DNA of 5,720 nt from Candidatus Symbiothrix sp. (GTDB lineage Bacteria; Bacteroidota; Bacteroidia; Bacteroidales; Azobacteroidaceae), in NCBI GenBank assembly GCA_031270525.1, contig JAISXN010000074.1, positions 1 through 5,720 on the forward strand. The letters run 5' to 3'. Under the pieces are notes generated by a model. The model had not been told where the DNA came from. It worked only from the letters and a program-made list of their open reading frames with translations, and ran no database searches. The position numbers and the translations under genes are program-made. Positions within the stretch are counted from its first letter, which is position 1. The number at the start of each line of letters is the position of its first letter. This document shows positions 763-3,639 of the stretch, in pieces.

Positions 763-1962
763 ATGAACCTTCTTGTTGAGAAATTGGGGAAATATGATAT
801 TCCGCAAAGAGCGAAAGCCGCAGGCTTGTATCCTTACTCAAAAGTGATCCAAAGCGATCAGGATACGGAAGTAATTATTAACGGTAGAAAGGTTTTAATG
901 TTCGGTTCTAATTCCTATTTAGGACTGACAAACCATCCGAAGGTCAAAGAAGCAGCCATTGCCGCCACTAAGAAATACGGTACGGGAATGGCGGGCAGTA
1001 GACACCTCAATGGGACATTAGATATCCACGTAGAGTTTGAGCAGAAATTAGCAAATTTTGTTGGAAAAGATGAAGCAATGATTTATTCAACAGGATTTCA
1101 AGTCAACGAAGGAGTGGTATCTTGTCTGACCGGTCGAGAAGATTTTATTTTATGGGATGAATTAGACCACGCATCTATTATCGAAGGCCACCGTGTATCT
1201 TACTCCCAAAAATTGAAATTCCGTCACAACGACATGGATTCATTGGAAAAACAACTGATGAAATGTACCCCCGATAAAATTAAATTGATTGTGGTAGATG
1301 GCGTTTTCAGCATGGAAGGGGACATTGCCAATCTCCCCGAAATCGTTCGATTAGCCAAGAAATACAATGCCAACATTATGGTTGATGAAGCACACGGCTT
1401 AGGCGTTTTAGGACGGCAGGGACGTGGTACATGCGACTATTTCAATGTGATGCCCGATGTCGATTTAGTTATGGGAACTTTTAGTAAATCACTGGCTTCG
1501 ATAGGTGGATTTATTGCAGCTTCCGAACCGGTAATCAATTATTTACGACACAATTCACGTTCATACATTTTCAGTGCAAGCAGCACTCCGGCGGCGATAG
1601 CGGCGGCAAATGCTGCTTTTGACATTATGGTGAGCGAACCCGAAAGAATCGAAAATTTGTGGAAACTAACCGATTATGCCTTGAAAGGTTTCCGTGAAAT
1701 GGGTTGCGAAATCGGAAACACCTCTACGCCGATTATACCTATATATATCAGGGACAACGACAAAACGTTCTATGTAACGCGCGACCTGTTTGAACAGGGA
1801 ATCTTCGTCAATCCGGTAGTTTCTCCCGCAGTGTCTCCAAATGATACTTTGATCCGTTTCTCTTTGATGGCGACGAATACTTTTGACCAGATAGACCAGG
1901 CGATGGATAAAATAGAAAAAAGCCTGATCAAAGTGGATGCTTTACAAAAAATGTTAGTCTAA
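763..1962 (+). CDS. spt: Serine palmitoyltransferase (PLP-dependent alpha-oxoamine synthase)
   Basis: The 399-residue protein belongs to the alpha-oxoamine synthase group of fold-type I PLP enzymes. SPT condenses L-serine with a long-chain acyl-CoA to 3-ketosphinganine, the committed step of sphingolipid synthesis. Visible features are GTFSKSLASIGGF with K242 as the PLP lysine, VDEAHG with D208 and H211 contacting the cofactor, and DHASI with H136 stacking on the PLP ring. The start MNLLVEKLGKYDIP and the segments LKFRHNDMDSLEKQL and VDGVFSMEGDIANLPEIVRL resemble, from memory, the Bacteroides thetaiotaomicron SPT (about 394 residues) more than BioF or Kbl. A close relative such as 2-amino-3-ketobutyrate CoA ligase is the main alternative. 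The ATG at 763 gives a normal length; it has no Shine-Dalgarno sequence, as is usual in this phylum. The gene appears to be monocistronic, and its last 9 bp overlap the convergent dnaX. No terminator is visible after it. Confidence 0.9.
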   Translation: MNLLVEKLGKYDIPQRAKAAGLYPYSKVIQSDQDTEVIINGRKVLMFGSNSYLGLTNHPKVKEAAIAATKKYGTGMAGSRHLNGTLDIHVEFEQKLANFVGKDEAMIYSTGFQVNEGVVSCLTGREDFILWDELDHASIIEGHRVSYSQKLKFRHNDMDSLEKQLMKCTPDKIKLIVVDGVFSMEGDIANLPEIVRLAKKYNANIMVDEAHGLGVLGRQGRGTCDYFNVMPDVDLVMGTFSKSLASIGGFIAASEPVINYLRHNSRSYIFSASSTPAAIAAANAAFDIMVSEPERIENLWKLTDYALKGFREMGCEIGNTSTPIIPIYIRDNDKTFYVTRDLFEQGIFVNPVVSPAVSPNDTLIRFSLMATNTFDQIDQAMDKIEKSLIKVDALQKMLV

Positions 1963-3639
1963 ACGAAGATTAAATTCTTGCACTAAGTTTTTTAAGCTCG
2001 GATTCTTATCGACCATATACAAATATTTTTCCCTATCGGTAAACAATGTTTGTGTATGGTCTTCTACTTTTATCTTAATATTCAATTCGAGACTGTTGTT
2101 TTTCAATGCAGAAAAAAGATATTCTTTAATGCTTGTTTTGTTTTCCTGAAAATAATCGGCTTGTTCTGGATTTAACACTTCTATTTCGAATCTGCAATCG
2201 TCCTTCAACAAGGGATTTATATATAACATCGTTTTTTTTAGATAAATATCTTCCGATTGATTGGCATAGTCTTTCCAGGATTTGATTAAATCTTCTTGAG
2301 AAAAAGGCTGGTTTTGAATCGAATTTTCCGTTTGCAAAGAAGCTGTTTGGGGCATGCTTGCCTGTTCCGGTTCGCCGTTAAGCCTCACCCTTGCGATTGA
2401 TTTGCCGGGATCGGCGGAGGTTTTTGGGGGATTTGAGTCTTCAATAACCTTAAGGTCTTTAAGGTCTTTAATGTCATTAACGTCCTTAAGATTTTCTTTC
2501 CCAATCGCCTCAATTACAATTTTTTTTTTATCTCCTTCCACAGGAGAAACTCTTGACTGGCAAAGCCGTACCAGCAGTAATTCAATTGAAAACCGTTTAT
2601 TTTTACTGTACCGGTAATTCAAATCCGTTTCATTCGTCAATTCCATGGCTTTGTACAAAAAGGTCGTTTCACAACGGCGCGCCAGTTCCAGGTATTTCTC
2701 TTTGACGGCGTCACCCACCTCAAACAAAACAATCGTTTGCGGATCTTTGCAAACCAACAAATCCCGGAAGAATAAAGCTAAACCGCTAATAATGTGCTGT
2801 CCGTCAAAACCTTTGCTCAAAATTTCATTCAGGAGTAACAAACATTGCGGAACGTCGTTTTGCAAAATGGCGTCCGTAATACGGAAATAATAATCATAAT
2901 CCAAGACATTCAGGTTCTCAATAACCGTCTTGTAAGTTACGTTTCCCTGCGAAAAACTGATTACCTGGTCGAAAATCGACAAAGCGTCGCGCATTCCGCC
3001 ATCGGCTTTATGTGCAATGATATTTAGCGCTTCACGTTCGTAACTAATATTTTCCTGTTTGGCAACATATTCCAAATAATCAACAATGTCATTGATACTG
3101 ATTCGGTTAAAATCATAAATCTGACAACGGGAAAGAATTGTCGGCAAAATTTTATGCTTTTCGGTAGTCGCCAGAATAAAAATGGCATGATGTGGCGGCT
3201 CTTCCAGAGTCTTCAAAAAAGCGTTGAAAGCCGATTGGGTGAGCATGTGTACTTCATCAATGATATACACTTTGTATCTCCCTAATTGCGGCATAATGCG
3301 CACCTGCTCGGTCAAAGCGCGAATATCATCGACCGAGTTATTTGACGCGGCGTCTAACTCGTGAATATTCAGCGAACGGTTCTCATTGAACGAGCGGCAT
3401 GATTCACATTCATTGCAGGCTTCGCCGTCCGGCGCCGGATGAAAACAATTGATGGTCTTGGCAAAAATACGCGCACAAGTAGTTTTCCCTACCCCGCGCG
3501 GACCGCAAAATAAATAAGCATGTGCTAATTTATTATTGATGATTGCATTTTTAAGCGTAGTAGTCAATGATTTTTGACCTACTACCGACTGAAAAGTGGA
3601 AGGACGATACTTTCTCGCCGAAACAACATAATTATCCAT
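1954..3639 (-). CDS. dnaX: DNA polymerase III clamp-loader subunit tau/gamma
   Basis: The 561-residue product is the ATPase subunit of the clamp loader, which opens the sliding clamp and loads it on primed DNA; the tau form also ties polymerase and helicase together. Visible motifs are Walker A GPRGVGKTT (46-54), a zinc module with C65, C75, C78 and C81, Walker B YIIDEVH (D128, E129), the SRC motif (170-172, R171 acting in trans on the neighbour's ATP) and sensor 2 GGMRDAL (214-220, R217). The collar domain runs to about residue 365. A charged, low-complexity linker (about 370-445) follows, then a C-terminal domain (about 446-561) ending EKYLYMVDKNPSL...LRLD as in other Bacteroidales. E. coli tau is longer (643 residues). 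The linker begins with a possible frameshift site. The ATG at 3637-3639 is followed by the conserved start VSARKYRPSTF, and a good promoter lies close upstream. The gene is divergent from degP and convergent with spt. Confidence 0.97.
   Translation of the reverse strand: MDNYVVSARKYRPSTFQSVVGQKSLTTTLKNAIINNKLAHAYLFCGPRGVGKTTCARIFAKTINCFHPAPDGEACNECESCRSFNENRSLNIHELDAASNNSVDDIRALTEQVRIMPQLGRYKVYIIDEVHMLTQSAFNAFLKTLEEPPHHAIFILATTEKHKILPTILSRCQIYDFNRISINDIVDYLEYVAKQENISYEREALNIIAHKADGGMRDALSIFDQVISFSQGNVTYKTVIENLNVLDYDYYFRITDAILQNDVPQCLLLLNEILSKGFDGQHIISGLALFFRDLLVCKDPQTIVLFEVGDAVKEKYLELARRCETTFLYKAMELTNETDLNYRYSKNKRFSIELLLVRLCQSRVSPVEGDKKKIVIEAIGKENLKDVNDIKDLKDLKVIEDSNPPKTSADPGKSIARVRLNGEPEQASMPQTASLQTENSIQNQPFSQEDLIKSWKDYANQSEDIYLKKTMLYINPLLKDDCRFEIEVLNPEQADYFQENKTSIKEYLFSALKNNSLELNIKIKVEDHTQTLFTDREKYLYMVDKNPSLKNLVQEFNLRLD
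2437..2490 (-). repeat. Six 9-bp tandem units in the dnaX linker
   Basis: Residues 384-401 read in triplets as LKD-VND-IKD-LKD-LKV-IED. The units are CTTAAGGAC, GTTAATGAC, ATTAAAGAC, CTTAAAGAC, CTTAAGGTT and ATTGAAGAC, so the similarity is in the DNA as well as the protein. The array is in frame, begins ten codons after the A10 run and adds a hydrophobic-Lys-Asp periodicity to the disordered linker. It looks like growth by replication slippage in a tolerant region. Confidence 0.75.
2510..2537 (-). other. Candidate slippage/frameshift site in dnaX (A10 run)
   Basis: The coding strand carries ten consecutive A (+ strand T run, 2520-2529) over codons 371-374, read as GAT AAA AAA AAA ATT. Gaining one A, or a -1 ribosome shift, gives K-K-K-N-C-N then TGA (2510-2512), a 376-residue product. 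Losing one A, or a +1 shift, gives K-K-K-L then TAA (2514-2516), a 374-residue product. Both products would keep the ATPase and collar domains and lose the linker and tau domain, as gamma does. AAGGAG (2532-2537 on the + strand as CTCCTT) lies 2 nt before the run. E. coli makes gamma by -1 frameshifting and Thermus thermophilus by slippage on an A run. Use of this site is inferred. Confidence 0.55.

Follow-up and report, generated by a model that had tools for sequence, protein, structure and literature searches.

A conserved run of A residues in dnaX of Bacteroidia as a probable RNA polymerase slippage site for tau and gamma

Can a run of ten A residues in the middle of dnaX give two products, tau and gamma, from a single gene, and would such a switch act on the transcript or on the ribosome? 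This question is raised by a stretch of 5,720 nucleotides from Candidatus Symbiothrix sp., which we call the window. It contains a gene for the gamma/tau subunit of DNA polymerase III (Table 1). In a profile search the product of this gene exceeded the cut-offs of both NCBIfam PRK14971 and dnaX_nterm, and it contains the ATPase, lid and collar domains of a clamp-loader subunit. The source assembly is incomplete (1.49 Mb in 230 contigs, about 53% complete) and includes one full dnaX match. At its end dnaX meets a convergent open reading frame (positions 763-1962), and the stops of the two genes overlap by 9 bases (1954-1962); we take the neighbor to resemble an enzyme of the serine palmitoyltransferase/KBL type. 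A scan of the window with Rfam gave nothing at the gathering thresholds.

Table 1. Position of dnaX and of the elements around its A10 run in the window.
Feature	Position	Strand	Details
dnaX, DNA polymerase III gamma/tau subunit	1954..3639	-	561 codons + stop; open reading frame and profile matches
Collar domain, Pfam DNA_pol3_gamma3	2542..2925	-	residues 239-366
Predicted stem-loop	2531..2547	-	6 bp, UCUCCU/AGGAGA, loop GUGGA; folding, -8.4 kcal/mol; 1 nt before the A run
A10 slippery run	2520..2529	-	codons 371-374, AAA AAA AAA A; T10 on the + strand
Tau-only tail, residues 375-561	1957..2517	-	zero frame in the window, shifted frame in 54 other loci
TAA, would end gamma at 374 residues if the transcript is one A short	2514..2516	-	frame reading; ends KKKL
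TGA, would end gamma at 376 residues if the transcript is one A longer	2510..2512	-	frame reading; ends KKKNCN

The run begins five codons past the end of the Pfam collar match at residue 366. The minus strand around it reads ..GTG GAA GGA GAT AAA AAA AAA ATT GTA ATT GAG.. and the two other frames are stopped shortly downstream. According to the first-pass annotation the A10 lies where the collar ends, the two other frames are soon stopped, and a shift in either direction would create a gamma-like protein of 374-376 residues; our reading of the minus strand confirms these statements. The gene of the window is one open frame of the tau-first type; the arrangement with gamma in the zero frame is not found in it.

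Two bacteria offer precedents for such a site. In E. coli, gamma arises from a -1 programmed ribosomal frameshift on dnaX at A_AAA_AAG with a downstream hairpin (PMC3711429, PMC3290774, PMC5009743). In Thermus thermophilus the transcript of dnaX slips on a run of nine A's (Larsen et al. 2000, according to PMC1088944, PMC5009743 and PMC3711429). The site in the window has two features of the Thermus type, namely a sense A run of at least nine and nearby stops in both non-zero frames.

We compared the window with dnaX loci from its genus, order, class and phylum. The genus set holds 33 of 34 genomes, the window included. The order set has 23 loci, which come from 21 of 24 genomes and, in two cases, from a phylum-wide draw of 296; G008, G044 and G050 matched weakly and were left out. 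All 70 same-class genomes outside the order within that draw form the class set. In addition we used 80 named Bacteroidota contigs and, as the outside-class set, 37 of the 219 outside-class genomes with a match, chosen among the best-scoring ones listed. The counts leave out L008, L029, L030, L135 and L140, which are second copies or shorter cuts, and L139, which has no N-terminal match. A run was scored when at least nine A's occurred in the zone from 20 codons before residue 360 to 40 codons after it. Interrupted runs are scored as absent, since pure A was required.

A run of this kind near the collar end occurs in all 33 loci of the genus, in 68 of the 70 class loci outside the order and in 59 of the 80 named contigs; it was found in only 11 of the 23 order loci and in 12 of the 37 loci outside the class. 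The earlier expectation that relatives keep at least nine A's with stops close by is thus borne out in the genus and in the class outside the order. It is not borne out in 12 order loci and 21 named contigs, which have no run of nine or more. On a tree calculated with FastTree from 272 DnaX N-terminal regions (L134 was too short and left out; L067 lies at a contig end and carries no state) the fewest changes between run and no run amount to 22. The A10 is also kept in L111 and L117, whose genomes (1.2 and 1.0 Mb) are the smallest near-complete ones in the genus. The run of L117 is at residue 385, and the preceding 32 nt do not fold.

Of the 181 run-bearing loci, 136 have ten A's, and the range of lengths is 9-13. 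The run occurs in each of the three codon phases; phase and distance from the collar vary by lineage, so that the run itself is kept and not a fixed peptide. In the open reading frames of at least 250 codons from the same loci (0.78 Mb) only 12 other sense runs of at least nine A's were found. Other Lys-Lys-Lys triplets in these frames are written with AAA only in 2 of 10 cases, which is a small number, and codon usage alone predicts about 35-50% of loci. Where tau is in frame, stops occur in the two other frames within 10 codons from the start of the run in 105 of 118 loci and in one of these frames in 12 more; the control positions gave both stops in 314 of 2360 cases. The A run at the collar end is not a product of chance, and the run with its stops lies far above background.

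The polarity of the gene is not the same in all relatives. Of the 181 run-bearing loci that were classified, 54 have a stop in the zero frame just after the run and a long tail that continues in another frame. In 53 of these gamma-first loci the shifted-frame tail, when read alone, matched (E≤1e-3) the tau tails of tau-first species; the single exception, L061, has a tail of 64 residues. The fact that the zero frame ends after the run while the tail is recognizable as tau indicates that these loci need a shift to make tau. One additional A is needed in 51 of them and one A fewer (or two more) in the other three (L119, L137 and L177). Among the run-bearing rows of the tree, the minimum number of changes between tau-first and gamma-first is 20. 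Since the zero-frame product is gamma in many relatives and tau in others, the feature is not special to the genome of the window. Similar genes have been described before. The GeneTack analysis lists 17 dnaX genes from 12 genera in which tau needs recoding, nine of them with ten A's, and proposes polymerase slippage (Antonov et al. 2013, PMC3711429). Our 54 gamma-first loci look like this two-ORF type, while the window itself is tau-first.

These data bear on two other explanations. The run and the structure before it could be tolerated sequence, i.e. a lysine-rich linker in AT-rich genomes. The gene in the window, being one open frame, indeed requires no shift. However, long A runs are rare elsewhere in the examined frames, the closure of both other frames is far above control, and the gamma-first loci could not make their recognizable tau without a shift; we consider this explanation very unlikely. 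According to the second explanation the run is a contingency locus at the DNA level: slippage during replication would turn a tau-making gene into a gamma-making one or the reverse, with phase variation of the cells as the result. This would agree with the different run lengths among species and with genome G046, in which two dnaX contigs (L127 and L135) carry A9 and A10; both of these have the long tail in the frame reached by an additional A, and they perhaps represent two strains. Against this, A10 predominates in both arrangements, and the C-terminus of tau tethers the polymerases at the fork (PMC3290774), so that its loss should be harmful. A contingency locus is, in our view, scarcely credible.

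Directly upstream of the run the transcript of the window is predicted to fold into a short stem-loop. Shuffled versions of the 41-nt stretch folded at least as well in 8 of 200 cases, and those of the 27-nt stretch without the run in 20 of 200. In 103 loci the 32 nt before the run have a mean folding energy of -7.0 kcal/mol, compared with -2.9 to -4.5 kcal/mol at eleven other offsets in the same genes. On average the stem energy is best with 0-1 nt between the 3' end of the stem and the run, and it comes close to background over about 6-8 nt. We then scored a stem when it had -4 kcal/mol or better and its 3' end was at most 3 nt from the run. By this score 110 of 171 loci have a predicted stem that ends 0-3 nt upstream of the run, versus 225 of 1710 control anchors. 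The individual sets gave 27/33 for the genus (control 37/330), 4/11 for the order (11/110), 33/59 for the named contigs (89/590) and 46/68 for the class (88/680). Outside the class the run-bearing loci show no excess (1/12 versus 14/120). With one locus per cluster of 85% identity (170 loci, 87 clusters) the stem is present in 51% versus 13.6%, and the highest of 2000 control draws reached 27.6%. Judged from these predictions, inverted repeats have a tendency to end 0-3 nt before the run. The other 61 of the 171 loci have the run without such a stem.

Synonymous-codon reshuffling retains about half of the mean stem energy, which could come from the encoded residues and the codon usage, and this is a point in favor of the view that run and stem are tolerated sequence. 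The number of loci in which the stem has p≤0.05 under this reshuffling is 14/33 in the genus, 23/68 in the class, 15/59 among the named contigs, 1/11 in the order and 1/12 outside the class. The arms differ in composition, the purine content being 0.72 in the 3' arms and 0.28 in the 5' arms.

Next we looked for covariation in three alignments; the shuffles that serve as reference ignore relatedness. The first contains 21 of the 33 genus loci, with the run at residue 372-373. Here 82% of the cells pair and 18 cells are changed on both sides. None of 500 shuffles reached the pairing, the two-sided cells or the covariation score of this set; its pairs with two-sided change and its pair types were reached by 156 and 259 of 500, respectively, and are unremarkable. 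The same pattern was obtained with a flavobacterial alignment of 38 loci, in which the run starts 19 nt past residue 360. In its 31 distinct rows 79.4% pair; pairing, two-sided cells and score were reached by 0, 2 and 3 of 500 shuffles respectively, and again the pairs with two-sided change (184/500) and the pair types (82/500) are unremarkable. The third alignment consists of 10 loci, those of the subclade to which the window belongs; L111 and L117 were placed neither here nor in the first alignment. In these 10 loci 56.7% of the cells are paired in the register of the window's stem and the score was reached by 471 of 500 shuffles, i.e. this register is not conserved. Another register in the subclade was also negative for covariation; 6 of the 10 loci pass the -4 kcal/mol score in some register.

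The most serious alternative is that the A run serves the ribosome, with a programmed -1 frameshift like that in E. coli dnaX, an upstream G-rich element and perhaps a downstream structure. The 51 gamma-first genes that need one more A are compatible with this, since such a shift equals -1. Words resembling a Shine-Dalgarno (SD) sequence are also enriched before the run, with 42/68 loci in the class, 13/33 in the genus, 23/59 among the named contigs and 4/11 in the order, compared with 8-17% in the control. The AAGGAG which had been pointed out just before the run of the window is present and fits this enrichment, but it overlaps the 3' arm of the predicted stem-loop. Of the 110 loci with a stem, 44 have no SD-like word, and 16 of the 61 loci without a stem have one. 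In the genus the word is absent in 20 of 33 loci, and 17 of the 33 have the stem without any such word. For this last reason we place the SD-like signal second as a candidate for the main element; it may have a helper role.

A downstream stimulator was considered as well. In the window itself a 60-nt stretch that starts with the run has a better fold than 197 of its 200 shuffles, a result that counts against slippage of the polymerase. Across the relatives, however, the mean downstream folding is within 0.6 kcal/mol of the control in the genus, in the class and among the named contigs, which is no clear excess, and we did not adopt this candidate. The E. coli heptamer A_AAA_AAG is not present in the window, where A10 is followed by TT. 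Furthermore, the three gamma-first genes that need the other shift imply that a -1 shift of the ribosome alone would not serve every locus. According to PMC12421855, frameshifting on prfB has a low efficiency in Flavobacterium johnsoniae, a species in which SD sequences are rarely used. Finally, a ribosomal mechanism leaves both the pure A10 runs and the upstream place of the stem unexplained. We therefore regard it as unlikely. Gamma and tau are, as predicted here, made from one gene as in E. coli, and the enriched SD-like words may be a second resemblance; the A10 followed by TT distinguishes the present site from the E. coli one, and no conserved downstream structure was found across relatives.

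Slippage of RNA polymerase accounts better for the position of the stem, the pure A runs, the shifts in both directions and the lack of a clear excess of downstream structure. Shifts in two directions on a pure A run are what a slipping polymerase would give. Together with the conservation of the A10 in genus and class and with the nearby stops, this leads us to propose that the run is a programmed slippage site from which tau and a gamma of 374-376 residues would be made; we give this reading, which rests on sequence comparison, a probability of roughly three in four. The first-pass annotation had suggested a tau/gamma switch and had preferred slippage over frameshifting, and the comparison across relatives supports it on both counts.

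The mechanism may be pictured as follows. The RNA-DNA hybrid in the polymerase measures 9-10 bp (PMC5009743). Once the run has been copied, this hybrid consists entirely of rA:dT, and the polymerase would slip and add or drop A's. A nascent stem-loop directly behind the hybrid would hinder back-tracking and promote the slip, so that stem and run might act much like an intrinsic terminator in which A replaces U. Transcripts with 10+3n A's would then code for tau and those of other lengths for gamma; in gamma-first genes the same slip would make tau.

The proposed site combines features of two known systems. As in Thermus thermophilus, there is an A run inside dnaX, tau is in the zero frame, stops lie nearby in the other frames, and gamma is predicted to come from slipped transcripts. 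It differs from the Thermus A9 in the length of ten and in the reversed arrangement seen in many relatives, and perhaps also in the stem-loop that is predicted beside the run in most relatives. The second system is an IS element of Roseiflexus, in which a stem-loop of the nascent RNA, immediately 5' of a T5C5 slip site, is required for slippage and may prevent back-tracking (Penno et al. 2015, according to PMC5009743). The stem-loop predicted here in the window and its relatives, with covariation in two of the three sets, is likewise directly 5' of the slippery stretch. In contrast to the present site, the T5C5 element slips in one direction and depends on its stem, while the A9-13 runs are slippage-prone unaided and are part of a housekeeping gene. 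The available passages of PMC3711429 on two-ORF dnaX genes name no upstream stem, class-wide spread or repeated changes of type, and those of PMC3290774 and PMC3971599 add nothing on slippage in Bacteroidota. Class-wide conservation, stem and polarity changes were also not found among the matches listed in a literature search on dnaX slippage or frameshifting in Bacteroidota and on the stem-loop, which covered titles and the openings of abstracts and few subscription journals. Thus the A9 slippage in Thermus and the two-ORF genes with A10 are known; the class-wide reach, the polarity changes and the stem appear to be new.

One family of Bacteroidales, here called f2, lacks the run and seems to reach the same end in another way. 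We searched 36 of its genomes, 33 of which gave a match, and read 30 loci (L250-L279); a named contig, L077, was added. In all 30 loci gamma stops at residues 375-378, and in L077 it stops at residue 384. The +1 frame continues with a tail, long also in L077 and of 203-295 codons in the 30 loci, in which nearby A runs have a length of at most 6. The stop is preceded by a nearly invariant AGGCAATCGCAGGAGCG-type element; the codons AGG CAA TCG CAG GAG directly before the stop are fixed in 29 to 31 of the 31 loci, L077 included, and the codons upstream of them vary. This layout resembles that of prfB with its SD-like word, slip codon and stop (PMC12421855). We did not find the word GGCAATCGCAGGAGCG in 395 genomes drawn from the class; no f2 genome is listed among them. 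We consider the f2 element a candidate for a +1 programmed frameshift that does the same job as the A run.

The observations on f2 and on the A run can be read jointly. Across the Bacteroidia an old "A-version of an intrinsic terminator" in dnaX, with a hairpin flush against A10 and with slippage instead of termination, would set the ratio of gamma to tau and would have let the two roles swap about 20 times. In this joint reading, one run-less Bacteroidales family would do the job with a fixed +1 ribosomal frameshift element, so that selection would keep the two products and not the mechanism. The odds of this wider picture seem to us about even.

According to PMC3290774, a frameshift signature in dnaX is missing from most bacteria, which may make no gamma. 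A switch that is kept across most of a class, together with 54 loci in which tau requires a shift, speaks for the importance of both products in these bacteria; what gamma does could thereby be tested in cultured members. The series of natural stems and run lengths can be used for studying how a nascent hairpin tunes slippage. If the proposed mechanism is true, it would to our knowledge be the widest use of programmed RNA polymerase slippage in a housekeeping gene. Annotation pipelines could well read gamma-first genes as broken or split.

Two further irregularities concern the tau tail. L089 and L109 have an in-frame TAG at the collar end, with similar surrounding DNA and a tau tail that continues in the same frame. 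A motif search for this site gave matches in 12 of 393 genomes of the order, in no case with dnaX in the surrounding 2.2-3 kb; the TAG may reflect readthrough or chance. In L138, which belongs to genome G003, two matches were obtained for the tau end (about residues 523-561), one of them in another frame; this looks like an assembly fault or a duplication.
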